Shown: positions 4,591 through 34,880 of the stretch, in pieces | Layout: every line of letters starts with the position of its first letter | Position numbering within the stretch: the stretch's first letter is position 1 | The notes under the pieces: model-generated | The model's input: only the letters and a program-made list of their open reading frames with translations | Databases searched by the model: none | What the model was told of the DNA's origin: nothing | IMG/VR virus record: IMGVR_UViG_3300025789_000079 | Coordinates: 1-40,677 of that record | Direction: 5' to 3' (one strand) | Length of the DNA stretch: 40,677 nt | Origin: a virus | Position numbers and translations under genes: made by a program

Positions 4591-7260
4591 ATGTCGTATG
4601 TAGACGCATGGTTTGACCGCGAGAATGATATCATTCGAGTTGTTGAACGTAACAAAAAAGGTGAACGTGAATTTCGAGACATTCCTGTCAAGCACACATT
4701 TTACGTCAAAGACCCTAAGGGCAAATTTCAATCAATCTACGGTGATACACTTACACGTATTGTTTGTAAAAATACAAAAGAACTACGCAAAGAACAAGCC
4801 ATTAATAGCGGCAAGACTTTATATGAGTCTGATATTAATCCAATCTTTGTAACACTAAGCGAACATTATCTTAACCAAGATCCTCCTAAATTACACACAG
4901 CGTTCTTTGATATTGAGGTAGACTTTGATCCGGAGCGTGGCTATGCTAGTCCAGACGATGCATTTATGCCAATCACTGCGATTGCTGTCTACTTACAATG
5001 GTTGGAAACTATGGTATGTTTAGCTATTCCGCCTAAAGGTCTTAAGATGGAAGAAGCTAAGGAAATGGTTAAGGACTTTCCCAATACTTATTTGTTCGAT
5101 AACGAAGCAGATTTATTAAGCATGTTCTTAGATCTTATACAAGATGCTGATGTTATTAGTGGTTGGAATAGCGAAGGATTTGACGTGCCTTATACTACTA
5201 ATCGTGTCATCAAGGCATTGAGTAAAGAAGATACTAGACGATTTTGTTTATTTGATCAATTACCTAAAAAACGCGAATACGAAAAATACGGTCGTACTAG
5301 TACAACTTACGATTATGTCGGTCGTGTACATTTAGATTATCTCGAATTATATCGCAAGTATACATACGAAGAACGACATAGTTATAGACTAGATGCTATT
5401 GCAGAATATGAATTGGGTCAACGTAAAACACAATACGAAGGTACACTTGATCAACTATACAATAATGATTTTAAAACATTTGTTGAATATAATATTAATG
5501 ACTGTAAACTTCTTGACGATTTAGATAAAAAATTAAAGTTCATGGATCTTGCTAACACACTAGCACATGAAAATACAGTATTGTTGCAAACTACAATGGG
5601 CGCTGTGGCCGTCACTGAACAAGCTATTATTAACGAAGCACACCGCAGAGGTTTTCAAGTTCCTAATCGTATTAAGAAAGACGACCGAGAAGAAAATACG
5701 GCTGCGGCTGGTGCGTATGTGGCAGTTCCTAAAGAAGGCATTGTAGACTGGGTTGGATCTTTAGATATTAACAGTCTGTATCCGTCAGCTATTCGTGCAT
5801 TAAATATGGGTCCAGAGACTATTATTGGACAATTACGACAAACAAAAACAGAAGAATTTATCGAATTACAAATGGCGAAAGGCAAGAGTTTTGCAGCATC
5901 TTGGGAAGGTGTCTTTGGTAGTTTAGAATATGAAGCTGTAATGAATCAAGAGATTGGAACTGATATAACTATCGATTGGGAAAATGGCGAAACTGATATC
6001 TTAAGTGCTGCAGAAGTTTATAGACTTATTTACGAAAGCAATCAGCCTTGGATGCTTTCAGCAAACGGTACTATTTTCACTTATGAAAAAGAAGGTATTA
6101 TTCCTGGGCTGTTAAAGCGTTGGTATGCAGAACGTAAGGAAATGCAGGCCAAATTAAAAGATGCAATTAAAGCTGGAAACAAAGTTGAAGAAGAATATTG
6201 GGACAAACGACAACTTGTTAAAAAGATTAATCTTAACAGTTTGTATGGTGCTATTCTTAATAGCGGGTGCAGATTCTTCGATAAACGTATTGGACAATCA
6301 ACTACACTTACAGGACGCCAGATCGTCCGACATATGGCAAGTAAAGTAAATGAAATCATTGCCGGTGAGTATGATCACAAAGGCAAAGCTGTCATCTACG
6401 GAGACACTGACTCGTGCTATTTTAGTGCATATAAAACACTTCAAAAAGACATCGATGCTGGGAAGATTCCATGGACAAAAGAAACAGTTGTTGCTTTATA
6501 CGACCAAATTGGTGAAGAAGTTAATACTACATTCCCACAATTTATGCTAGATCAATTTCATTGTCCAAAAACTCGAGGAGAAGTTATACGAGCAGGCAGA
6601 GAAATTGTAGGAAGTAAAGCATTGTTTATTACCAAGAAACGCTATGCAGTGCTTTATTATGATAAAGAAGGCAAACGTACAGATGTGGATGGTAAACCTG
6701 GTAAAATTAAGGCCATGGGCTTAGATCTTAAGCGTAGTGATACTCCAGAATTTATTCAAAACTTTTTAAGTGATGTTCTTGAAATGGTATTACTAGGCAA
6801 AGGTGAAAAAGAAGTGTTAGATATGATTAGTGAATTTAGAATTAAATTCAAAGGGAGACCTGGTTGGGAAAAAGGTTCACCTAAACGTGCTAACAATATC
6901 ACCGACTATCAAGCTAAAGAAGCCAAAGCAGGTAAAGCTAATATGCCCGGTCACGTTCGTGCTAGTATCAATTGGAATACTCTTAAACGAATGTATAACG
7001 ACAAATATTCTATGGGTATTACAGACGGTGCAAAAGTTATTGTTTGTAAACTCAAACCTAATCCGTTAGGTTTTACATCAGTTGCATATCCAGTGGATGA
7101 ACTGAGGTTACCACAGTGGTTCAAAGACTTAGCATTTGATCACGCTGAGATGGAACAAACTATTATCGATAATAAGTTAGATAACTTAATTGGTGTATTA
7201 AATTGGGACATCAATAGTACAGAAGAAAAAAATACATTTAACAGTTTATTTGAGTTTTAA
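4591..7260 (+). CDS. 43: DNA polymerase, family B (T4 gp43 type)
   Basis: The replicative DNA polymerase with 3'-5' proofreading; 889 residues against 898 in T4. Exonuclease motifs are intact: Exo I FFDIEVDFD (105-113), Exo II GWNSEGFDVPY (191-201), Exo III YNINDCKLL (300-308). Polymerase motifs are intact: A SLDINSLYPSA (390-400), B KKINLNSLYGAILNSG (544-559), C YGDTDS (603-608), and KKRY (682-685). The last residues, NSLFEF, resemble the short hydrophobic tail through which gp43 binds the gp45 clamp, encoded two genes downstream. The ATG at 4591 follows a good GGAGAAG site and a hairpin that may be an autoregulatory operator. Nothing suggests truncation or an intein. Confidence 0.97.
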   Translation: MSYVDAWFDRENDIIRVVERNKKGEREFRDIPVKHTFYVKDPKGKFQSIYGDTLTRIVCKNTKELRKEQAINSGKTLYESDINPIFVTLSEHYLNQDPPKLHTAFFDIEVDFDPERGYASPDDAFMPITAIAVYLQWLETMVCLAIPPKGLKMEEAKEMVKDFPNTYLFDNEADLLSMFLDLIQDADVISGWNSEGFDVPYTTNRVIKALSKEDTRRFCLFDQLPKKREYEKYGRTSTTYDYVGRVHLDYLELYRKYTYEERHSYRLDAIAEYELGQRKTQYEGTLDQLYNNDFKTFVEYNINDCKLLDDLDKKLKFMDLANTLAHENTVLLQTTMGAVAVTEQAIINEAHRRGFQVPNRIKKDDREENTAAAGAYVAVPKEGIVDWVGSLDINSLYPSAIRALNMGPETIIGQLRQTKTEEFIELQMAKGKSFAASWEGVFGSLEYEAVMNQEIGTDITIDWENGETDILSAAEVYRLIYESNQPWMLSANGTIFTYEKEGIIPGLLKRWYAERKEMQAKLKDAIKAGNKVEEEYWDKRQLVKKINLNSLYGAILNSGCRFFDKRIGQSTTLTGRQIVRHMASKVNEIIAGEYDHKGKAVIYGDTDSCYFSAYKTLQKDIDAGKIPWTKETVVALYDQIGEEVNTTFPQFMLDQFHCPKTRGEVIRAGREIVGSKALFITKKRYAVLYYDKEGKRTDVDGKPGKIKAMGLDLKRSDTPEFIQNFLSDVLEMVLLGKGEKEVLDMISEFRIKFKGRPGWEKGSPKRANNITDYQAKEAKAGKANMPGHVRASINWNTLKRMYNDKYSMGITDGAKVIVCKLKPNPLGFTSVAYPVDELRLPQWFKDLAFDHAEMEQTIIDNKLDNLIGVLNWDINSTEEKNTFNSLFEF

Positions 7261-7261
7261 T

Positions 7262-8038
7262 ATGAAAATTATAATTGCAGGATATGGATTTGTAGGCAAG
7301 GCTGTTGCTAATGCCATAGATAAAAATAACATAGTATATATTGTTGATCCAAAGATAAGCGAACAAACAGTAAAAGATTATCCGGATGCTGAAGGAGTAA
7401 TTATTTGTGTAGGAACACCGAGCACTGAAACAGGGGATTGCGATGTAAATCAAATATATCAAGTAATGGATACTGTTCCTGTGCATATACCGGTATTACT
7501 TAAATCAACAGTGCCGCCAAACTATCTAGAAAGATTACTTGTAAACTACCCCAATCATAGTATTGCCTATAGCCCAGAATTTTTACGTGCGGTTAGTGCC
7601 AACGAAGATTTTGCTAATCAGGAGTATATGATTTTAGGCGGAAGTAATCCCGGAAATATTTGGAGAGAATTATTCATTGTCTCGCTTAAAAACCTAAATA
7701 AGATCGAGCATTGTACACTAACAGAAGCAAGTATGGTCAAATATGCTACCAATTGTTTCCTAAGTGTCAAAGTAGCGTTCTTCAATCAGTTATATGACAT
7801 GTGCCAAATGAATGGCGCAGACTATAACAAGATTGTTGAATTATTACAATTAGACGAACGCATAGGTAACAGTCATATGCAAGTTCCCGGTCCAGACGGT
7901 AGTCGTGGTTTTGGTGGAGCATGTTTCCCTAAAGATACAAATGCATTTGTACACTATGCAGATAGTTTGCAGATTTCACATACACTTGTAGAATCGGCAA
8001 TAAAATATAATAAGAAAATTAGAAAAACATTGACATAG
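7262..8038 (+). CDS. Short UDP-glucose/GDP-mannose dehydrogenase-like protein
   Basis: A member of the nucleotide-sugar 6-dehydrogenase family, which oxidises UDP-sugars to uronic acids with NAD+. It shows the Rossmann motif GYGFVG (7-12), VGTPS (49-53), STVPP (81-85), SPEFLR (103-108), the central helix KYATNCFLSVKVAFFN (159-174) and the catalytic-cysteine loop GFGGACFPKD with Cys220. It is only 258 residues long, whereas bacterial enzymes have about 390-450: the C-terminal nucleotide-sugar-binding domain is missing. The ATG at 7262 is 1 nt after the gp43 stop, so it is likely coupled to gp43. It may act as a dimer lacking the cap, use a different substrate, or supply sugar for the glycosyltransferases here. 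Confidence 0.85.
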   Translation: MKIIIAGYGFVGKAVANAIDKNNIVYIVDPKISEQTVKDYPDAEGVIICVGTPSTETGDCDVNQIYQVMDTVPVHIPVLLKSTVPPNYLERLLVNYPNHSIAYSPEFLRAVSANEDFANQEYMILGGSNPGNIWRELFIVSLKNLNKIEHCTLTEASMVKYATNCFLSVKVAFFNQLYDMCQMNGADYNKIVELLQLDERIGNSHMQVPGPDGSRGFGGACFPKDTNAFVHYADSLQISHTLVESAIKYNKKIRKTLT

Positions 8039-8058
8039 TCACGCAGAACCTATATAAT
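8030..8058 (+). promoter_or_regulatory. Consensus sigma-70 promoter for the sliding clamp
   Basis: TTGACA (8030-8035), exactly 17 bp, TATAAT (8053-8058): both hexamers are perfect. It overlaps the end of the dehydrogenase gene. The expected start, about 7 nt past the -10, falls at or next to the in-frame ATG at 8065. Confidence 0.9.
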
Positions 8059-12703: not shown

Positions 12704-14245
12704 ATGTCAAAAATTAATTCAGTTACTATAGTCGGTGGCGGGTCATCGGGATGGATGACAGCAGCTGCGTTTTCAAAAATATTTCCTCAGTTAAAAATTA
12801 CATTAGTAGAATCTAAAAATGTTTCTATCATGGGTGTAGGCGAGTCGTCACTAGCAACAATTAATCATTATTTAGAAATGCTTGATATAGAAGACGAAGA
12901 CTGGATGCCTCAGGCTAATGCTACTTACAAAACATCTATTAAATTTACAAATTTTTTAAGCGAATCATCATCTTATTACGATGTATTAAAACCAGAAGCA
13001 TCTTCAGTAGAAAACTTTAGCCCTGTAGATTTCTTTTTAGTATCAAAGATATATCCCGATATAGATATTACTGAATTTTCTAAATATTTCGACGATACCC
13101 ACGAAATGATTGTGCAGAATAAACTAACCGATCGTAACGATGTCCTTAATTGGAATTTCAAATACGATAAAGCCTATCATATGGATGCTTATAAATTTGG
13201 TTTAACATTAAAAGAAAAAGTAGCATTACCAAACGGAGTTATTCATTTAGAAGACGATGTAATAGAATGTCGTACAAATGGTATAGGAGAAATAGATTGT
13301 ATTATTACAAAAAATAATGGTACATTAAAGTCCGACTTATACATTGACTGCACTGGGTTTGAAGCTACTTTAATAGAAAAAACACTAGAAGTTCCTTTTG
13401 AAAGTTTTTCTAACAAATTAATAAATGATAGAGCTATAGCTACTAATATTCCGTATGTTGATAAAGAAACAGAATTAAACTCGTGGACAGATTGTACAAC
13501 ATTAAAAAATGGCTGGTTATGGAATATCCCAGTATGGGATAGAATTGGGGCTGGTTATGTTTTTTCTAGCAAATTTGTCGACGACGAAACAGCATTACAA
13601 GAATTCAAAGAAGGATTACGCATCACATATGGGGACCGAGCCGATAATATCGAACCAAGATTTATTAGTTTTAAACCCGGAGTAAGAAAAAAATCATGGT
13701 ATAAGAATGTGCTTGCTATAGGACTAACTTCTGGTTTTTTAGAACCATTAAGATCTACAGGTTTAATGGTAACTCATAACAACATTATGAGAGCAATATC
13801 TTTATTGTCAGTAAAAGATTGTTTTATCAATACTATAGACAAGGATATATTCAATAATCAATCGAAACAAGAATTATATAGCTGGAGAGATTTTGTTTCG
13901 GCACATTATGCATTTTCCAAAAGAAAAGATAGCGACTATTGGAAATATGTGACAGAAGAAATCGACTACTTAGAAGATTCTACCGAATTTAAAAATTTAT
14001 CAACTGATTTAGATTTACATTCAAATCAGCTTAGTTTTAATATTAGAATTTTATCTGGCATGGGATATAACCCGTTATCTGATCTAAAGATACAACAATT
14101 AAAAGATCGAAATCAAATCAATTATGAATTTTTAAAACATATTGTCCAAGAATGGAAAAAGAGAAAAACCATAATTGACAATTATACCAAAACACTTCCA
14201 TCTAATTTGGAATTTTTGAAAAAGAAAATTTATAAAAATCATTGA
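12704..14245 (+). CDS. Flavin-dependent (tryptophan-type) halogenase
   Basis: A member of the tryptophan halogenase family, FAD enzymes that use FADH2, O2 and halide to halogenate indole, pyrrole or phenol rings; a cyanophage member (VirX1) has been characterised as an iodinase. Motifs: FAD-binding GGGSSGW (11-17), GVGESS (44-49), the presumed catalytic Lys76 in ATYKTSIKF, the halogenase-specific WxWxIP motif as WLWNIP (271-276), and GFLEPLRSTG (344-353). The residue before the chloride-binding Ser is Arg350; the family has Glu there (PLESTG). No flavin reductase was recognised nearby, so reduced flavin would come from the host. It lies 3 nt after the MDR gene, in the same cassette. At 513 residues it has normal length. 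Confidence 0.88.
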   Translation: MSKINSVTIVGGGSSGWMTAAAFSKIFPQLKITLVESKNVSIMGVGESSLATINHYLEMLDIEDEDWMPQANATYKTSIKFTNFLSESSSYYDVLKPEASSVENFSPVDFFLVSKIYPDIDITEFSKYFDDTHEMIVQNKLTDRNDVLNWNFKYDKAYHMDAYKFGLTLKEKVALPNGVIHLEDDVIECRTNGIGEIDCIITKNNGTLKSDLYIDCTGFEATLIEKTLEVPFESFSNKLINDRAIATNIPYVDKETELNSWTDCTTLKNGWLWNIPVWDRIGAGYVFSSKFVDDETALQEFKEGLRITYGDRADNIEPRFISFKPGVRKKSWYKNVLAIGLTSGFLEPLRSTGLMVTHNNIMRAISLLSVKDCFINTIDKDIFNNQSKQELYSWRDFVSAHYAFSKRKDSDYWKYVTEEIDYLEDSTEFKNLSTDLDLHSNQLSFNIRILSGMGYNPLSDLKIQQLKDRNQINYEFLKHIVQEWKKRKTIIDNYTKTLPSNLEFLKKKIYKNH

Positions 14246-15460: not shown

Positions 15461-16044
15461 GTTATCTTATTTTAGAAAATACTTACGAGGCAAGTACTTA
15501 TAAGAAATTTTATCAAATTCTTAAAGATAGCCCATTTAAATATTTTTGGAGAGATATTGTAGGTTCATATTATTGGAATCAAAGTAATCCAGATACCCAA
15601 TTAAATTCATTAATTGAAACTATGTGGGATCAATTTAGTAATAAATTTTCGTATGCCGGCAAACGTGGCAACACGTATATTAATGCACAAACATTTGGAC
15701 TAGAACCTGGTGCTCATTTTGATACCGAAACAGACGACGGTGTTACTGTAATAAATTTTATCACTGATACATGGAACATTACTTGGGGGGGTGAAACAAT
15801 ACTTTATAATTTTTATTATAATGATTTAGGCAATGACGAACATATTCCAAATCATTTTAATAAACCAATTACCATTGACACTGCAATTATACCAGCGTAT
15901 AATAAAACATTAATATTTCCAAGTAATCAATTACACATGGTTAAGCCGATGTCTCGATTTTATAACGGTATAAGATATACTCTTATGTATAAGATTACAG
16001 ATATCACATTTGAACAATTAAAAAAGAATTATAATGAACATTAA
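15457..16044 (+). CDS. 2-oxoglutarate/Fe(II)-dependent oxygenase
   Basis: A 195-residue member of the P4H-like oxygenases. Iron ligands are His87 and Asp89 in GAHFDTE and His160 in FPSNQLHMVKP; Arg173 in GIRYTLMYKI fits the 2-oxoglutarate carboxylate. WGGETILYN (110-118) is the common WxGGE-like strand. It overlaps the previous oxygenase by 4 nt (ATGA) and the next gene by 11 nt. The two oxygenases are clearly different in sequence, so this is not a recent duplication. The substrate is unknown; the position after a halogenase and two dehydrogenases suggests tailoring of one small molecule or base, which is inference. Confidence 0.82.
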   Translation: MSYLILENTYEASTYKKFYQILKDSPFKYFWRDIVGSYYWNQSNPDTQLNSLIETMWDQFSNKFSYAGKRGNTYINAQTFGLEPGAHFDTETDDGVTVINFITDTWNITWGGETILYNFYYNDLGNDEHIPNHFNKPITIDTAIIPAYNKTLIFPSNQLHMVKPMSRFYNGIRYTLMYKITDITFEQLKKNYNEH

Positions 16045-20388: not shown

Positions 20389-21159
20389 TTGACTACATTT
20401 ACAACAGAAGATTTAAAAAATGTGTTAGCTGGTGCTAACCAGCAAGACGATGACAATAAAGAATATAAAGAAGCATATCTTGGAGATCATCTTCGATTTA
20501 AAATGAAACGCGAAGGCAAACGCTTTTGGGCTGGCGATAATATCAGCGACTATGTTAGCGAAGAAGACAAAGCAAAACTAATTGAAGAAGCAACTGAGGC
20601 ATTTGAAACTGTATTAGATCGGTTGCTTATTGATCGAGAAACAGATCCAAACTCTAAAGGTACAGCAAAGCGTCTTGCTAAAATGTACTTTAATGAAATA
20701 ATGGCAGGAAGATATGACACAGCACCAGACGCAACAGCATTTCCAAATGATTCGGTGGATCGTTACGAAGGTATGTTGGTTGTTCGTAGTGAGCTCCGCA
20801 GTATGTGTAGCCATCATCACCAACCCGTTGTTGGTGTTGCTTATATTGGTATTATTGCGGCGCAGAAACTCATCGGACTTAGCAAGTATACCAGGATTGC
20901 ACAGTGGTGTGCCCGACGTGGAACTCTCCAGGAGGAACTTTGTAATGACATTGCCCGCGAGATTGGTAAAGCTACCGGAGCAACAGACTTAGGTGTTTAT
21001 ATTCAAATGACACATGGTTGCTGTGAGAATCGTGGTATTATGGCTAAGAGTAGTTTAACACAGACTACAGTATTAAAAGGTGCGTTTAAAGACGATATGG
21101 GTACAAAGAAAGAATTCTTTGACAATATCAAAATGCAACAAGAGTATGCTTCAAAATGA
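20389..21159 (+). CDS. folE: GTP cyclohydrolase I
   Basis: Converts GTP to dihydroneopterin triphosphate, the first step toward folate and 7-deazaguanines. The zinc site is visible: Cys140, His142 and His143 in RSMCSHHHQPV, and Cys211/Cys212 in MTHGCCENRG. GLSKYTRIAQWCARRGTLQE (163-182) is the family signature GLSKxxRxVxxxARRxQxQE. At 256 residues it is longer than E. coli FolE (222). Translation starts at TTG 20389, 6 nt after AGGAG. It has its own promoter. With QueE, DpdA and the QueD-like protein here, supply of a 7-deazaguanine is the likely purpose. Confidence 0.93.
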   Translation: MTTFTTEDLKNVLAGANQQDDDNKEYKEAYLGDHLRFKMKREGKRFWAGDNISDYVSEEDKAKLIEEATEAFETVLDRLLIDRETDPNSKGTAKRLAKMYFNEIMAGRYDTAPDATAFPNDSVDRYEGMLVVRSELRSMCSHHHQPVVGVAYIGIIAAQKLIGLSKYTRIAQWCARRGTLQEELCNDIAREIGKATGATDLGVYIQMTHGCCENRGIMAKSSLTQTTVLKGAFKDDMGTKKEFFDNIKMQQEYASK

Positions 21160-21347: not shown

Positions 21348-21577
21348 TGACTAACGCAAAACAATTAACCGACGAATTAATTTATCGTATGAAAACTACA
21401 GACCTAAATAAGTTTGAGATTAAACGTGAAGTTGGTCCCAATTGGTTGCCCAATGGTACTGTTCCTTTTAATATCAGTGCTAGTAAAGGTATTGCTACAT
21501 TTACAGTATGGGCCGAAAGTATACAAGATGCAGAAGATCAAGTAAGTCAATATTTAGAAAGAGACGAAGATGAGTAA
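21347..21577 (+). CDS. Small unknown protein
   Basis: A 76-residue acidic protein. The start at ATG 21347 follows GGGAGG and overlaps the previous stop. It shows FEIKREVGPNWLPNGTVPFN then SKGIATFTVWAESIQDAEDQ, an alternating-strand region followed by a helix, ending RDEDE. No family is recognised. It overlaps queE by 8 nt and is probably co-translated with it. Confidence 0.72.
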   Translation: MTNAKQLTDELIYRMKTTDLNKFEIKREVGPNWLPNGTVPFNISASKGIATFTVWAESIQDAEDQVSQYLERDEDE

Positions 21578-22421
21578 ATTAAAAATAGCAGAATTATTTT
21601 ATAGTATTCAAGGTGAAGGACGATACATGGGAGTACCGTCTGTTTTCTTGCGCACATTTGGTTGTAACTTTAAATGTGCAGGCTTTGGTATGCCTCGAGG
21701 CGAACTTAGTACCGAAGCCGACGATATTGCACAAGTGGCGTTCCACTTTAATAAGTACGAAGAACTACCTTTAGTTAGTACAGGATGTGACAGTTATGCT
21801 AGTTGGCATCCTAGCTTTAAAGATCTCAGTCCAATGCTTACCAGTGATGCTATTGTAAATCGTATTATGGAAATTCTTCCTTACAAAACATGGTTAGATG
21901 AGCATCTTGTAATTACAGGCGGTGAACCTTTGTTAGGTTGGCAGAAAGCCTATCCAGACTTGCTCGATCATACTGACATGCGTAATTTAAAAGAAATTAC
22001 ATTTGAAACTAATGGTACTCAAAATTTAACACAAGAATTTAAAGACTATCTAAGTGAATGGTCTATTAGAAATAATTATCCACGTGCTGTAACATTTAGT
22101 GTAAGTCCAAAATTAAGCTGTAGCGGAGAAAAACGTGAAGATGCTATTAAACCAGATGTTGTTTTAGAGTATCAAGAAGTAGGACCGACTTATTTAAAAT
22201 TTGTTATTGCCACAGAAGATGATGCATACGAAGCACTAGAAGTAATGGACATTTATCGTGCATTAGGATTTGAAGGTGCTGTTTATTTTATGCCAGTAGG
22301 CGGAGTAGAAAGTGTATATGCATTGAATAATCGACGTGTAGCAGAACTAGCTATGAAGGCAGGTTTACGTTATAGTGATAGACTACAAGTGCCATTATTT
22401 AAAAATGAGTGGGGTACTTAA
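21570..22421 (+). CDS. queE: 7-carboxy-7-deazaguanine synthase (radical SAM)
   Basis: QueE is a radical SAM enzyme that contracts 6-carboxytetrahydropterin to 7-carboxy-7-deazaguanine. The N-terminus IAELFYSIQGEGRYMGVPSV matches the QueE signature with QGEG, and VITGGEPLL (114-122) is the GGEP motif that binds SAM. The cluster motif is split: Cys32 and Cys36 in GCNFKCAGFG are followed by a third Cys73 in TGCDSYAS, which matches the usual CDTxYA, so 36 residues replace the normal two. Insertions here are known in some QueE proteins. At 283 residues it is longer than most (about 210-245), as the insertion explains. QueC is not found nearby. Confidence 0.9.
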   Translation: MSKLKIAELFYSIQGEGRYMGVPSVFLRTFGCNFKCAGFGMPRGELSTEADDIAQVAFHFNKYEELPLVSTGCDSYASWHPSFKDLSPMLTSDAIVNRIMEILPYKTWLDEHLVITGGEPLLGWQKAYPDLLDHTDMRNLKEITFETNGTQNLTQEFKDYLSEWSIRNNYPRAVTFSVSPKLSCSGEKREDAIKPDVVLEYQEVGPTYLKFVIATEDDAYEALEVMDIYRALGFEGAVYFMPVGGVESVYALNNRRVAELAMKAGLRYSDRLQVPLFKNEWGT

Positions 22422-25984: not shown

Positions 25985-26013
25985 TTGACTAAGAATGTCT
26001 ATGACATTATAAT
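25985..26013 (+). promoter_or_regulatory. Sigma-70 promoter of the MoxR gene with inverted repeat in spacer
   Basis: TTGACT (25985-25990), 17 bp, TATAAT (26008-26013). Inside the spacer AATGTC-TAT-GACATT (25994-26008) is a perfect inverted repeat reaching the first base of the -10, a possible operator. A leader of about 50 nt follows, with AGGAAG before the ATG. Confidence 0.85.
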
Positions 26014-26068: not shown

Positions 26069-27157
26069 ATGGCAGAAATCGTCAGTCGCACCGTTGGTCC
26101 AAGCGGCGCTAAAAAATCCTTGCGTAAAGCATTTAAAAATCAACGTCCAATTTTTCTATGGGGTCCTCCAGGAATTGGTAAATCGGATATCATTAAACAA
26201 CTCGGTGATGAGCTTGATGCTCATGTAATCGATGTTCGTTTGAGCTTGTGGGAACCCACTGACATTAAAGGCATTCCATATTTTGATTCTAACGATGGAA
26301 CAATGCGTTGGGCTCCTCCTAGCGAATTGCCTAGTGCTGAATTGGCTAAACAACATAAAACTATTGTGTTGTTTTTAGACGAAATGAACTCTGCGGCTCC
26401 TAGCGTACAAGCTGCTGCTTATCAATTGATTTTGAATCGTCGTGTAGGTACTTATAAATTGCCAGATAATGTTGTGCTAGTTGCTGCTGGCAATCGTGAA
26501 ACAGATAAAGGTGTTACATTCCGTATGCCTGCTCCTTTGGCCAACCGTTTTGTACACTTAGAAATGCAAGTTAATTGGGATGACTATTTTGAATGGGCTG
26601 TTGAAAATAAGATCCATAAAGACGTAGTTGGATTTTTGAGCTTCAGTAAAAAGAGTCTGTATGATTTTGATCCAAAATCTAGCTCACGTGCGTTTGCCAC
26701 TCCACGCTCTTGGTCGTTTGTTTCCGAGTTGTTGCACGATGACGATACCGATGCTGAAACACTTACTGACTTAGTGAGTGGTTCTGTAGGAGAAGGTTTG
26801 GCAATTAGCTTTATGGCTCACCGTAAACATGCTAGCAAAATGCCTAATCCTACAGATATTTTGAATGGCAAAGTTAAGAAAATGGATTCTAAAGAAATTA
26901 GTGCTATGTACTCATTAACTGTGTCACTGTGTTACGAATTGAAAGATGCATGTGACAAGAAAGCTAAAAACTGGAACGAACAAGTTAACTGTTTCTTTGA
27001 GTTTATTATGAATAACTTTGAAACAGAATTGGTTATTATGGGTACTAAATTAGCATTGTCAACTTACAAGTTGCCATTAGATCCAGATGAAATCAAATGT
27101 TTTGACGAATTCCACTCCAAGTTTGGTAAGTACATTAGTCAAGCAACCGAAAAGTAA
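26069..27157 (+). CDS. MoxR-type AAA+ ATPase
   Basis: A 362-residue AAA+ ATPase of the MoxR kind, which usually works with a VWA-domain partner to remodel or insert cofactors into protein complexes. Walker A is GPPGIGKS (32-39), Walker B LFLDEMN (101-107), and sensor 1 Asn142 lies in VAAGNRETD. PAPLANRF (154-161) holds the likely arginine finger. The segment WEPTDIKGIPYF (61-72) is typical of the subgroup. The next gene encodes a metallopeptidase/VWA protein, the expected partner. It has its own strong promoter. I know of MoxR/VWA pairs in bacteria (RavA-ViaA, CoxDE); the role in this phage is unknown. Confidence 0.88.
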   Translation: MAEIVSRTVGPSGAKKSLRKAFKNQRPIFLWGPPGIGKSDIIKQLGDELDAHVIDVRLSLWEPTDIKGIPYFDSNDGTMRWAPPSELPSAELAKQHKTIVLFLDEMNSAAPSVQAAAYQLILNRRVGTYKLPDNVVLVAAGNRETDKGVTFRMPAPLANRFVHLEMQVNWDDYFEWAVENKIHKDVVGFLSFSKKSLYDFDPKSSSRAFATPRSWSFVSELLHDDDTDAETLTDLVSGSVGEGLAISFMAHRKHASKMPNPTDILNGKVKKMDSKEISAMYSLTVSLCYELKDACDKKAKNWNEQVNCFFEFIMNNFETELVIMGTKLALSTYKLPLDPDEIKCFDEFHSKFGKYISQATEK

Positions 27158-27173
27158 ATTGGTTTAGCATCAG

Positions 27174-27202
27174 TTGACACCTCCTTAGGGAGGTGTTATA
27201 CT
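27174..27202 (+). promoter_or_regulatory. Sigma-70 promoter of the VWA gene with palindromic spacer
   Basis: TTGACA (27174-27179), 17 bp, TATACT (27197-27202). The spacer is filled by a perfect 8-bp inverted repeat, ACACCTCC-TTAG-GGAGGTGT (27177-27196), which also takes in half of the -35. The same element would form a hairpin in mRNA reading through from the MoxR gene. Without a U-run it is a better operator candidate than terminator. Confidence 0.88.
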
Positions 27203-27231
27203 ATATACATAGTAAAAACTTAGGAGCAAAG

Positions 27232-28416
27232 ATGTCTAGTTTAGACCCAATCGTTGATAAAATTATTATAGCTCGAGTTAGCTTATTGCTTAAACATCCG
27301 TTTTTTGGCAATATGGCAACACGTTTAAAAATTCAAGAAGCAGACGATTGGTTGCCTACTGCAGCAACCGATGGTCGTACAATCTTTTTTAATCGTAAAT
27401 TTTTTGAACCGTTGACAGTTAAACAAGTCGAATTCGTGATTGCACATGAAATTCTACATAATGTGTTTGATCACATGGCTCGTCGCGAAAATCGCAATGC
27501 ACGTATTTTTAATATTGCTGCCGACTACTGTGTAAACGGACAATTAGTTCGTGATCGTATTGGCGATCACAACGTAGGTGATATTAAAATTTTCCATGAT
27601 CCTAAATACTATGGCATGGGTGCAGAAGAAGTATACGACAAAATCTTTGACGAAATGGATGAGGAAGAACTTAACCAATTAGGTCAATTATTGGATGAAC
27701 ATATTGACTGGGGTGAAAACGGTAAAGAAGGCCAGCCAAAATATACTAAAGATCAATTAAAAGAAATTCGTGATGAGATCCGCGAAGCTACAATGCAGGC
27801 TGCACAAGCCGCAGGTGCTGGTAACACACCTGCAAGTGTACAGCGTATGATTAAGGAATTGACAGAACCTAAAATGAATTGGCGTGAAATCCTGCGTCAA
27901 CAAATTCAAAGCACTATTAAAAACGATTATTCGTTTATGCGTCCTAATCGTAAAGGTTGGCACATGAGTGCGGTGCTACCCGGAACACAATTTCAAGAAA
28001 CAATTGATATCTGTGTAGCAATCGATATGTCAGGTTCGATCGGCGACGAACAGGCAAAAGATTTCTTAACAGAAATTAAAGGTATTATGCAAGAGTATAA
28101 AGACTTTAAAATTAAAGTATGGTGTTTTGATACTCGAGTTTATAACGAAGCAGACTTTGACGGATATAATATCGACGAATTTGATTACTACGAGCCAATG
28201 GGCGGTGGTGGAACTGAGTTCGATGCCAACTGGAATTACATGAAAGAAAATGATATTCAACCTAAAAAGTTTATCATGTTCACTGATGGGTATCCTTGGG
28301 GTAGTTGGGGTGATGAAAATTACTGCGATACAGTATTCATTATTCACGGTAATGATACCATTGTTCCTCCTTTTGGAGAATATGCGTATTATCAGTTTGC
28401 TAAGGAAACAGCATAA
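27232..28416 (+). CDS. Metallopeptidase-like plus VWA domain protein (DUF2201 type)
   Basis: A 394-residue protein with start at ATG 27232 behind TAGGAG. The N-terminal half is a predicted zinc metallopeptidase domain with HEILH (72-76) in FVIAHEILHNVFDHM and a likely third ligand in NIAADY (94-99). The C-terminal half is a VWA-like domain with the metal site DMSGS (265-269), GGGGTEFD further on, and FTDGYPW. This order is that of the DUF2201 family. Together with the MoxR ATPase just upstream it forms an ATPase/VWA pair with an added peptidase-like domain. The pair has separate promoters. Substrate and role in infection are not known. Confidence 0.85.
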   Translation: MSSLDPIVDKIIIARVSLLLKHPFFGNMATRLKIQEADDWLPTAATDGRTIFFNRKFFEPLTVKQVEFVIAHEILHNVFDHMARRENRNARIFNIAADYCVNGQLVRDRIGDHNVGDIKIFHDPKYYGMGAEEVYDKIFDEMDEEELNQLGQLLDEHIDWGENGKEGQPKYTKDQLKEIRDEIREATMQAAQAAGAGNTPASVQRMIKELTEPKMNWREILRQQIQSTIKNDYSFMRPNRKGWHMSAVLPGTQFQETIDICVAIDMSGSIGDEQAKDFLTEIKGIMQEYKDFKIKVWCFDTRVYNEADFDGYNIDEFDYYEPMGGGGTEFDANWNYMKENDIQPKKFIMFTDGYPWGSWGDENYCDTVFIIHGNDTIVPPFGEYAYYQFAKETA

Positions 28417-28703
28417 TGGCATTAAAAAATGGCAAACCTAATCCTTTAAATTATTATGATTTAAGAAGGGTTGAGTTTGCCTGTCCACATTTCAAATATA
28501 CTAGTATAGATAGATACAATCCTAGTTTAGTCAAATCTATAGACTCTTGGATCAAAAAGAATTTAAATAATAGGTATTATGTAGGACAAGGAATTACGCT
28601 AGATAATACCAATACAATTGTTTATAATACACGTATTGGCTTTGAAAGCGAAAAAGAATTAAGTTTTTTCACAATTGCCTGTCCTCTTTTACAGACGAGA
28701 TAA
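28416..28703 (+). CDS. Small unknown phage protein
   Basis: A 95-residue protein whose ATG overlaps the previous stop (TAATG). It contains YDLRRVEFACPHFKYTSIDR and SIDSWIKKNLNNRYYVGQGI, ending with FFTIACPLLQTR. It looks like a compact alpha/beta domain with conserved cysteines in two ACP triplets. No family is recognised; co-transcription with the VWA gene is likely. Confidence 0.75.
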   Translation: MALKNGKPNPLNYYDLRRVEFACPHFKYTSIDRYNPSLVKSIDSWIKKNLNNRYYVGQGITLDNTNTIVYNTRIGFESEKELSFFTIACPLLQTR

Positions 28704-28731: not shown

Positions 28732-29007
28732 ATGGCTGACGTACAAAATACAAACGACGGTGCTCCGTCAAACGACCTTACAATTAATGACCTAAATGCA
28801 ATGAAAGTCATTATTGATATTGCTAGTTCACGTGGTGCATTTAAACCAAATGAAATGGTAGCTGTAGGTCAAACATATACAAAATTAACAACATTTTTAG
28901 ATGCTGTATCAGCACAACAAGCAGCAGCAGAGAAGGCAAATGCTGCTCAACCTGCAACACAACAACCAGCAACTGACGCTCTTTCATCAGCTGTAGCAGG
29001 AGCTTAA
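28732..29007 (+). CDS. Small Ala/Gln-rich phage protein
   Basis: A 91-residue protein with an excellent AAGGAGATATT ribosome site. Residues 15-60 form a helical domain (LTINDLNAMKVIIDIASSRG, then FKPNEMVAVGQTYTKLTTFL), and the rest is Ala/Gln/Pro low complexity. I recall this domain type (two helices with FKxxEM) in other T4-like phages, with unknown function. The next gene starts 1 nt after the stop. Confidence 0.78.
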   Translation: MADVQNTNDGAPSNDLTINDLNAMKVIIDIASSRGAFKPNEMVAVGQTYTKLTTFLDAVSAQQAAAEKANAAQPATQQPATDALSSAVAGA

Positions 29008-29008
29008 T

Positions 29009-29608
29009 ATGGCTCAAGAACTTAAACACGTAGGGCGTGTCATTGCCACTAACAAAAAATGTATAGTGGCATATCGTACATTACCCGGTGATGCATATAA
29101 TTGCTTAATTGTTCCAACCGAGAATATGCCTGATATCTATCACGATGCTATTATTAATTTAGTAGAAAGTGGTGCTGGTCAGGACTCGTATGAGTTTGCC
29201 GAAGTATTAGATCGCACTCAATTTCCAGACGGTTCACGCATGTTGCCTTGGTTGCATGTCAATAACAGATTAATTAAAGCACCAACAAGCGCAATTGAAA
29301 TGACTCCGAGAGCCGGTGTAAGTATTCAATTATCTGAATTAAATCAAATTATTGCTGAACAACGCGGTGTTGCTGTAGACGAATTATCTATTAAACCGAC
29401 TACTGGAGAAACTAATACCGAAAAAGCAACAGCAACAGTTACAGAAGAAAAAGTTGCCGAAATACCTGCACCAATTTCATCAGTAGCATTAACTCCTGAA
29501 GCCCAAGCTAAAGAGTATCGTAGTCAAGCAGATAAACTAGCTAAACAAGCAGCTGAGATGCGTCGAAAAGCAGAGGAATTGGTTCCGACCAAGAAGAAAG
29601 TGCAGTGA
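29009..29608 (+). CDS. Unknown phage protein with helical Lys/Ala tail
   Basis: A 199-residue protein. The first 110 residues are a beta-rich domain (VGRVIATNKKCIVAYRTLPG, then YNCLIVPTENMPDIYHDAII). A linker rich in Thr, Glu and Ala follows, then a C-terminal helix (KEYRSQADKLAKQAAEMRRK) likely to form a coiled coil. GGAG lies at correct distance inside the previous gene. The next gene overlaps by 4 nt with a GTG start. I do not know its function. Confidence 0.75.
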   Translation: MAQELKHVGRVIATNKKCIVAYRTLPGDAYNCLIVPTENMPDIYHDAIINLVESGAGQDSYEFAEVLDRTQFPDGSRMLPWLHVNNRLIKAPTSAIEMTPRAGVSIQLSELNQIIAEQRGVAVDELSIKPTTGETNTEKATATVTEEKVAEIPAPISSVALTPEAQAKEYRSQADKLAKQAAEMRRKAEELVPTKKKVQ

Positions 29609-29925
29609 CAAAATCTGGGAAGATCCTTCCCAAAGATGTCGTAGCACATTGGCCAGAAGTATTCGAAGATGTTCAACTTAATGTTTTACCCATTAAGTAT
29701 CTTAGTACAGTTTTGATTAATTTTAAAGACGGCAAAACTTGGGAAATAAAAGTAACAGCAAAGGCAAAACGAGAAGGTTGGCCGGTGTTTGAAAGTAGCC
29801 TCAGCGAGTTATGTAAGAACTATGAAGATTCGATCGATAACGTAGATTTTAAATTGGATTCGGCTCGAGTACGAAAAGATATCGAAAGAACTACTCAACA
29901 ATTTTTAAAGAAAAAGAAGTTATAA
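29605..29925 (+). CDS. Small unknown phage protein
   Basis: A 106-residue protein starting at GTG 29605 (GTGA overlap with the previous stop). KDVVAHWPEVFEDVQLNVLP followed by LSTVLINFKDGKTWEIKV is a pattern I recall from T4-like cyanophages, role unknown. The C-terminus is basic (TTQQFLKKKKL). It lies directly before thyX, whose ATG follows the stop without a gap. Confidence 0.75.
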   Translation: MTKSGKILPKDVVAHWPEVFEDVQLNVLPIKYLSTVLINFKDGKTWEIKVTAKAKREGWPVFESSLSELCKNYEDSIDNVDFKLDSARVRKDIERTTQQFLKKKKL

Positions 29926-30606
29926 ATGAATGTTAAATTGCTTAGTTACAGCCAGCCAACTGAAGAATTTGCTAGCATGGGAATCTCGGATGCACAAGAA
30001 CTCATTGCCTACTGTGCAAGAGTCAGTAACCCGAGCAATCAGCTTAATACAGAAACCTCAGAAAAGCTCATTAGATATCTTATTAAGCACCAACACTGGA
30101 GTCCTCTCGAAATGGTGTCCGCCTGCATCGAGATTACTACTACAAGAGATATCGCAAGACAAATCCTTAGACATAGAAGCTTCAGTTTTCAAGAGTTCAG
30201 CCAACGTTATGCTGACCCAACAAAGGATCTCAACTTTGTACTTAGAGATGCTCGCAAGCAAGATACCAAAAATAGACAAAATAGCATAGAACTAGATCCT
30301 CATAATAATGATGAAGATCGGTTTTTAGCGTATCAATGGGAGCGTATGCAGGAGCTTGTTATTAAACAAAGTCGTGATGCATACGAATGGGCTATTAGTA
30401 AAGGAATAGCCAAAGAACAAGCACGTGCTGTATTACCAGAAGGACTTATTGAAAGTCGGTTATATATGAATGGTACGTTACGTAGTTGGATTCACTTTAT
30501 TGAATTACGTAGCTCAAATGGTACACAAAAAGAGCATCAGGAAGTTGCAATAGCTTGTGCTAAAGTTATTGCTAAAATCTTCCCGATGACTACAGATCTT
30601 ATTTAA
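29926..30606 (+). CDS. thyX: Flavin-dependent thymidylate synthase
   Basis: ThyX makes dTMP from dUMP using FAD, NADPH and methylene-tetrahydrofolate. The signature RHRx7S is present as RHRSFSFQEFS (82-92), followed by QRY (93-95). ARAVLPEGLIESRLYMNGTL (about 165-184) matches the C-terminal substrate region, including the Arg-Leu-Pro-like segment. At 226 residues it is of normal length. It needs folate, as does the FolE branch in part. It is the last plus-strand gene, and its stop overlaps that of the first minus-strand gene by 8 nt. Confidence 0.93.
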   Translation: MNVKLLSYSQPTEEFASMGISDAQELIAYCARVSNPSNQLNTETSEKLIRYLIKHQHWSPLEMVSACIEITTTRDIARQILRHRSFSFQEFSQRYADPTKDLNFVLRDARKQDTKNRQNSIELDPHNNDEDRFLAYQWERMQELVIKQSRDAYEWAISKGIAKEQARAVLPEGLIESRLYMNGTLRSWIHFIELRSSNGTQKEHQEVAIACAKVIAKIFPMTTDLI

Positions 30607-34851: not shown

Positions 34852-34880
34852 ATAATACAGTACAGTAGTTAGCTTGTCAA
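34852..34880 (-). promoter_or_regulatory. Sigma-70 promoter, minus strand
   Basis: Read on the minus strand: TTGACA (34880-34875), 17 bp, TATTAT (34857-34852). Transcription should start near 34845, leaving a short leader with CGGAG before ATG 34831. It drives the glycosyltransferase-like operon toward 30599. Confidence 0.85.

Follow-up and report, generated by a model that had tools for sequence, protein, structure and literature searches.

We show that the boundary between two co-directional genes of a large, uncultured, T4-like phage, encoding a MoxR-type AAA+ ATPase and a DUF2201-type metallopeptidase-VWA protein, is under two sequence constraints, i.e. a conserved sigma-70 promoter and a covarying hairpin. 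The novel part is the RNA hairpin fitted exactly into the 17-base promoter gap between the ATPase gene and the VWA gene; the protein pair itself is already known and not new here. The source is IMG/VR record IMGVR_UViG_3300025789_000079, positions 1-40,677, and this 40.7-kb virus fragment, analysed over its whole length, is referred to as the window. The best explanation, which we hold with moderate confidence, is a remodelling machine built from a MoxR ring and an adaptor, encoded in two transcription units and separated by a dual-use boundary of 29 nt. The features of the locus are:

25985..26013, + strand: ATPase promoter, sigma-70-type, TTGACT-17-TATAAT, 11/12, unstructured spacer (conserved in relatives)
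26069..27157, + strand: MoxR-type AAA+ ATPase, 362 aa, phrog_1297, relative of N4 gp24 (Pfam domains, PHROG, motifs)
27174..27202, + strand: VWA-gene promoter, TTGACA-17-TATACT, 11/12, hairpin as spacer (profile, covariation)
27177..27196, + strand: inverted repeat ACACCTCC-TTAG-GGAGGTGT, 8-bp stem, 4-nt loop
27232..28416, + strand: DUF2201 protein, 394 aa, phrog_1314, relative of N4 gp25 (Pfam domains, motifs, AlphaFold model)
28416..28703, + strand: 95-aa protein, clade-specific, start overlapping the stop of the VWA gene (synteny; weak ferredoxin-like model)
28732..29007, + strand: 91-aa protein, phrog_13789, syntenic in the clade
29009..29608, + strand: 199-aa protein, phrog_15894, syntenic in the clade
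29605..29925, + strand: 106-aa protein, syntenic in the clade
29926..30606, + strand: ThyX thymidylate synthase

Two promoters and the hairpin in the spacer of the second

The raw count of promoter-like sites in the window is not above chance (85 versus 83.7 expected from shuffles), and promoters were therefore judged by conservation, the relatives used being metagenomic (environmental) loci. The sequence-only reading had placed a near-perfect sigma-70 promoter before each of the two genes, and both hold up: each matches the consensus at 11/12 positions, and at least 11/12 matches are retained by the ATPase promoter in 64/65 relatives (mean 11.4; 8.5 in shuffled upstream regions) and by the VWA-gene promoter in 75/77 (mean 11.5; 8.2 in shuffled upstream regions). 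Judged by the conservation of -35, -10 and the 17-bp spacing in a fixed place, both promoters are genuine. The accompanying statement that most genes of the window lack such promoters is fair, genes 25568, 28416, 28732 and ThyX having means of 7.9-8.7 matches in relatives, although sites at 8030 and 15875 reach 12/12 each and those at 34880 and 20254 (both on the minus strand) 11/12 each. The two 12/12 matches, 8030-8058 and 15875-15903, have no spacer hairpin, and the latter lies inside an ORF. In the ATPase promoter, TTGAC and TA-A-T are invariant in 57 relatives and the spacer carries 0.1-0.8 bits per position; as this spacer drifts freely, promoters here do not in general carry a palindrome.

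The VWA-gene promoter contains a perfect inverted repeat that the sequence-only reading had not reported. The element of 29 nt (27174-27202) reads TTG-ACACCTCC-TTAG-GGAGGTGT-TATACT, with the outer three stem pairs formed by the ACA of the -35 hexamer and the TGT preceding the -10 hexamer. The hairpin stem, spanning the 17-bp spacer and this ACA, is present in 79/80 relatives, being perfect in 76 and having 7/8 pairs in three. In the profile of 77 relatives, -35 and -10 reach 2.00 bits nearly everywhere and the flanks drift; TTG never varies, TATA[AC]T hardly does, and at three pairs of the inner stem both partners change in concert. Among 35 distinct sequences, 99.3% of the stem cells are paired compared to 80.9% in shuffles and 47 cells are compensatory compared to 18.4, with 0/500 shuffles reaching either figure, and the covariation signal is lost when the stem partner is slid out of register. 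The inner half-site varies (CCTCC, GGACC, CCACC, CCGCC) with its symmetry kept.

The loop is UNCG in 65/79 relatives, i.e. positions 1, 3 and 4 are conserved and position 2 is free, and UUAG in the window itself. Most relatives show the C-G-closed, intergenic stem with UNCG loop by which phage UNCG hairpins are recognised; the window departs from it in its loop. Scanning the collection with fixed promoter ends yielded perfect inner stems in 73 of the 121 matches listed for TNCG, in 4 of 125 for GNAA and in 0 of 123 for ANCA. UUCG loops stabilise RNA and TTCG is not specially stabilising in DNA (PMC2864571), for which reason the hairpin, judging from its loop, most likely acts at the RNA level. 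As an intrinsic terminator it would be unusual: at 27177-27202 the hairpin is present and a U-tract is absent, because TATAAT directly abuts the hairpin, and the terminator scan does not list the site, so that classical intrinsic termination may be weak. The Rfam covariance models gave no match to the element, and we found no description of a hairpin within a promoter spacer in the open-licence literature.

The space between -35 and -10 is the classic position of an operator. The inverted repeat might accordingly be read as DNA, with a dimeric phage or host repressor binding the spacer palindrome and shutting the promoter, and the perfect dyad placed exactly between both hexamers in 76/80 relatives would suit this. 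We regard an operator as quite unlikely: a sequence-specific repressor would conserve bases, whereas the half-site bases vary with symmetry kept, the centre is UNCG instead of being free, and the TNCG element is found once in a 383-kb relative.

The promoter hairpins of N4 serve its virion RNA polymerase. Modelled on these, the element could be a DNA cruciform or extruded hairpin modulating the promoter, a reading to which the palindrome abutting -10 and the use of hairpin promoters by N4-type phages (PMC4496689) lend some precedent. It appears improbable, the window promoter being of sigma-70 consensus, unlike the N4 virion RNA polymerase promoters, and the loop bias fitting RNA, as TTCG has no special stability in DNA. 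Least probable is that the hairpin alone matters as an mRNA end or processing signal with TTGACA and TATAAT as its by-product, since, although hairpins with CUUCGG often separate the genes of phages and are known in T4 (PMC8948821, citing Tuerk 1988), the TTG outside the stem and the -10 hexamer are (nearly) invariant in 77 relatives with drifting flanks, the T4 CUUCGG hairpins have no promoter flanks (best 9/12) and five distant relatives keep the promoter separate from the hairpin.

We infer that the hairpin terminates the ATPase message or protects its 3' end, because distant relatives hold a separate terminator at this junction, in five cases with a promoter after it.

Probable origin of the junction and related elements at other junctions

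Most of the more distant relatives in which the two genes are still adjacent have an intrinsic terminator at the junction. In L160, L104, L200, L108 and Phosso, this terminator is followed by a separate promoter of 10-12/12 matches. Atu_ph07, RaK2 and Aeromonas 2L372X have a junction terminator, carrying a UUCG loop in 2L372X, without a recognised consensus promoter; the T-rich tails of the terminator-like hairpins of distant relatives were judged by eye. At the junctions of N4, Ruegeria V21 and Vibrio D520 we detected no clear terminator and no consensus promoter. The separate terminators, five of them with a separate promoter, suggest that the clade of the window has apparently merged an upstream 3' hairpin with the downstream promoter into 29 nt, differing in this from the separate terminator of Atu_ph07. 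In one relative (L023), a 192-aa gene (6999-7577) separates the VWA gene from the hairpin promoter, the element staying behind the ATPase gene.

Intercistronic CUUCGG/UNCG hairpins of T4 resemble those of the window's clade in being stable hairpins between co-directional genes. T4 has about 20 CUUCGG hairpins, many with U-tracts and none in a promoter spacer, whereas the hairpin of the window fills a sigma-70 spacer, which 0/74 T4 CUUCGG contexts do (best 9/12). UNCG hairpins as a general trait of these phages were considered and rejected: apart from pattern-selected sites, only 18 stems of at least 7 bp with such loops were found in 1.87 Mb, several of them being variants of the same hairpin-promoter element. 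The window has no UNCG hairpin save one inside an ORF, and the TNCG hairpin promoter is absent from 13 isolate genomes including PA5oct, RaK2, N4 and Atu_ph07.

Beyond the clade, the pattern scans give lower bounds, for sites selected by the promoter and loop pattern itself. The TNCG sites listed are for the most part ATPase/VWA junctions. At least about 20 perfect ones lie elsewhere, for instance at nrdA|nrdB and in front of gp44 or a gp32-like gene; in many cases the preceding stop codon is 2-8 nt away and the next start codon 25-60 nt. At the nrdA|nrdB junctions (L189, L119, L111, L086, L201-L262), many relatives within one phage group retain the promoter, and a subset of them has a perfect hairpin, variable in its loop, as the spacer. 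The hairpin is thus facultative at nrdB. Hairpin-in-spacer promoters also precede the gp44 clamp loader (L120, L090, L181, L164), a gp32-like protein (L152, L139, L113, L148) and an MGTRS protein (L200, L103, L104); as 2/79 gp44 junctions have the element, it is sporadic there.

We tentatively propose that these sites might represent a distinct class of phage regulatory elements, in which an RNA hairpin, usually UNCG-capped, is nested in the -35/-10 spacer of a consensus sigma-70 promoter, the element ending or protecting the upstream message and starting the downstream one within 29 bp and having merged from terminator and promoter here and separately at nrdA|nrdB and before gp44. If the hairpin works in this way, the boundary would be a very compact one, used at both the DNA and the RNA level. 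It would then illustrate how compaction of a genome can fuse a terminator with a promoter; tools annotating the two separately would break, and the element could serve as a 29-bp insulator part.

The ATPase and the metallopeptidase-VWA protein

Both proteins are what the sequence-only reading had called them, a MoxR ATPase and a DUF2201-type protein with a HEILH motif and a DMSGS metal site. The product of 26069-27157 is, by domains and motifs, a complete MoxR-type AAA+ ATPase: it exceeds the Pfam cut-offs for AAA (3.7e-8), AAA_5 and AAA_3/MoxR and contains Walker A (GPPGIGKS), Walker B (LFLDEM), the GN of sensor 1 and the arginines R160 and R213. Alignment shows Walker A/B, sensor 1 and the key arginines being kept across divergent phages; the APECc02 outgroup sequence, picked by annotation, failed to align as an ATPase.

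The VWA gene encodes an N-terminal HExxH metallopeptidase-like domain (DUF2201_N, PF13203: 2.5e-40, 139.3 bits versus a cut-off of 23.2) followed by a C-terminal VWA domain with intact MIDAS (PF09967: 1.9e-12, 47.8 bits versus 26.4). HEILH (residues 72-76) and DMSGS (265-269) are invariant in 125-126 close environmental relatives. Residue by residue, H72, E73, H76 and the five MIDAS residues D265, S267, S269, T328 and D352 do not vary in 124-126 of these, and all of them but E73 are also invariant in 17 divergent phages. Likewise invariant, D98 and N102 are candidates for the third zinc ligand. In the AlphaFold model (mean pLDDT 72.8; 27 sequences), the N-terminal domain resembles the minimal metallopeptidase selecase (4qhi, rank 41), which is also a weak sequence match, and the C-terminal domain matches the VWA fold. 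Translation is assigned to the conserved ATG 27232, giving 394 aa, which is preceded by an AGGAG-type ribosome site and where the tblastn alignments of relatives begin. A longer reading from the earliest in-frame start, GTG 27193, was rejected, as this start falls within the promoter. We also rejected the label 'HNH endonuclease' of PHROG 1314 and RefSeq in favour of the DUF2201 domains, Pfam and NCBIfam giving no match to an HNH nuclease domain in this protein. Members of phrog_1314 such as N4 gp25 (L361:1165-2307) are widely named 'HNH endonuclease' without domain support, and correcting this widespread mislabelling of the pair as nuclease makes its function testable in the laboratory phage N4.

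Out of 50,697 phage records, 808 contain a homologue of the ATPase and 778 one of the VWA protein, with near-identical host breakdowns. Among the uncharacterised two-gene machines of large phages, the pair is one of the most frequent. The order ATPase-then-VWA on the same strand occurs in T4-like jumbo phages, N4-like phages, Vequintavirinae, cyanophages, an Aeromonas phage and phage G; in isolates the genes are co-oriented and mostly adjacent, other genes intervening in PA5oct and phage G. Both genes are thus co-conserved with catalytic and MIDAS residues retained in homologues, the point on which the sequence-only reading had made its proposal depend. The pair is a core feature of N4-like phages, gp24 and gp25 being core genes of these and middle transcripts in N4 (PMC4193335, PMC7650795). 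N4 resembles the window in having homologous, adjacent and co-oriented genes and differs from it by having neither the small genes of the clade nor a terminator or consensus promoter at the junction.

Iyer et al. 2021 (PMC7824862) described a MoxR/metallopeptidase-vWA pair in group 2.2 jumbo phages, naming the Atu_ph07 proteins ASV44729.1/ASV44728.2, and proposed a virion-assembly chaperone. This pair has the same two families, order and domain fusion as that of the window, and Atu_ph07 itself is among the tblastn matches to the latter. The proteins differ in nothing essential except that ASV44728.2 (L364:6208-7497) has HQxxH replacing HExxH, the sole divergent exception seen, and may be a non-catalytic version. 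Peptidase activity is therefore not obligatory, and its chemistry is, from this substitution, probably dispensable in some phages.

In 80 environmental loci, synteny extends all the way from 24543 to ThyX as far as the contigs reach. The suggestion that the small genes behind the pair are its partners with conserved gene order stands in part. They are syntenic in the clade, and a homologue of the 199-aa gene immediately follows the pair in RaK2-like jumbo phages and related ones, in Phosso being about 15 kb away; on the other side, the 95-aa protein matches nothing in any isolate and the N4-like pairs examined come without the small genes. The predicted structure of the 95-aa protein is of low confidence and weakly ferredoxin-like, with no significant fold match. 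One locus has a 182-aa gene (L077:9199-9747) inserted between the VWA gene and the homologue of the 95-aa gene.

Proposed remodelling machine and its client

NorQ/NorD, RavA/ViaA and related bacterial MoxR-VWA chaperones share with the pair of the window an AAA+ ATPase and a MIDAS-bearing VWA partner, the DUF2201 protein differing from NorD/ViaA-type partners by its extra N-terminal metallopeptidase-like domain. For NorQ/NorD, MIDAS and Walker B are required for client maturation. By analogy we infer a model in which the MoxR AAA+ ring and the metallopeptidase-VWA adaptor would together use ATP to remodel or mature a complex encoded by the phage. Docked on the ring through its VWA domain, the adaptor would hold an acidic patch of the client with the MIDAS metal. 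Its N-terminal HExxH domain would bind the client and in most phages may clip it, and ATP hydrolysis would pull on the client until it is active or assembled. ATPase and VWA gene would be separate transcription units with a boundary using one 29-nt element twice: as DNA, it would be the consensus sigma-70 promoter of the metallopeptidase-VWA gene; as RNA, in transcripts from the ATPase promoter, its spacer would fold into a UNCG-type hairpin ending or protecting the ATPase message. The promoter would restart transcription at the VWA gene, which may allow the two subunits to differ in amount.

A virion or replication-stage phage complex is the most likely client. The pair is positioned in a replication and nucleotide-metabolism block, the co-directional block on the + strand around it containing genes for DNA polymerase, GTP cyclohydrolase, QueE, an exonuclease family protein and ThyX. 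Genes for thymidylate synthase or dCTP/dCMP deaminase lie at most about ten genes downstream of the pair in RaK2, S-TIM66, N4, RHph_X3_15, Vibrio 2.275.O and Ruegeria V21, just as ThyX follows the pair in the window. The ATPase homologue of PA5oct is annotated with an ESI-MS/MS note, which could mean presence in the virion. Against a virion client, the pair of the window is outside the tail-fibre block, which occupies the other strand beyond about 35.9 kb. A role in virion assembly is possible and is put forward with reserve, a replication or nucleotide enzyme needing maturation is somewhat doubtful as client, and a client of yet another kind is rather unlikely.

The sequence-only reading had also considered host RNA polymerase or a defence complex as target. 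Such a host-takeover or counter-defence machine, and with it a host or defence client, is in our view unlikely. The sigma-70 promoters of its own and the location in the replication block would fit, and MoxR-VWA modules are also found in bacterial conflict systems (PMC7159879), but a very broad, core-gene distribution, as in N4-like phages, is expected more of a gene with a phage-intrinsic client than of one taking part in an arms race. The PADLOC models gave weak AAA matches (DolB, IetA) to the ATPase, nothing beyond generic AAA similarity, and no match to the VWA protein.

The DNA polymerase of the window is nearest to those of the jumbo phages Phosso and Atu_ph07. Additional genes of the window include a UDP-glucose-dehydrogenase-family gene (7250-8038) and a tryptophan-halogenase-like gene (12704-14245). 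The GTP cyclohydrolase gene (20389-21159) and the QueE-like gene (21570-22421) suggest 7-deazaguanine DNA modification.
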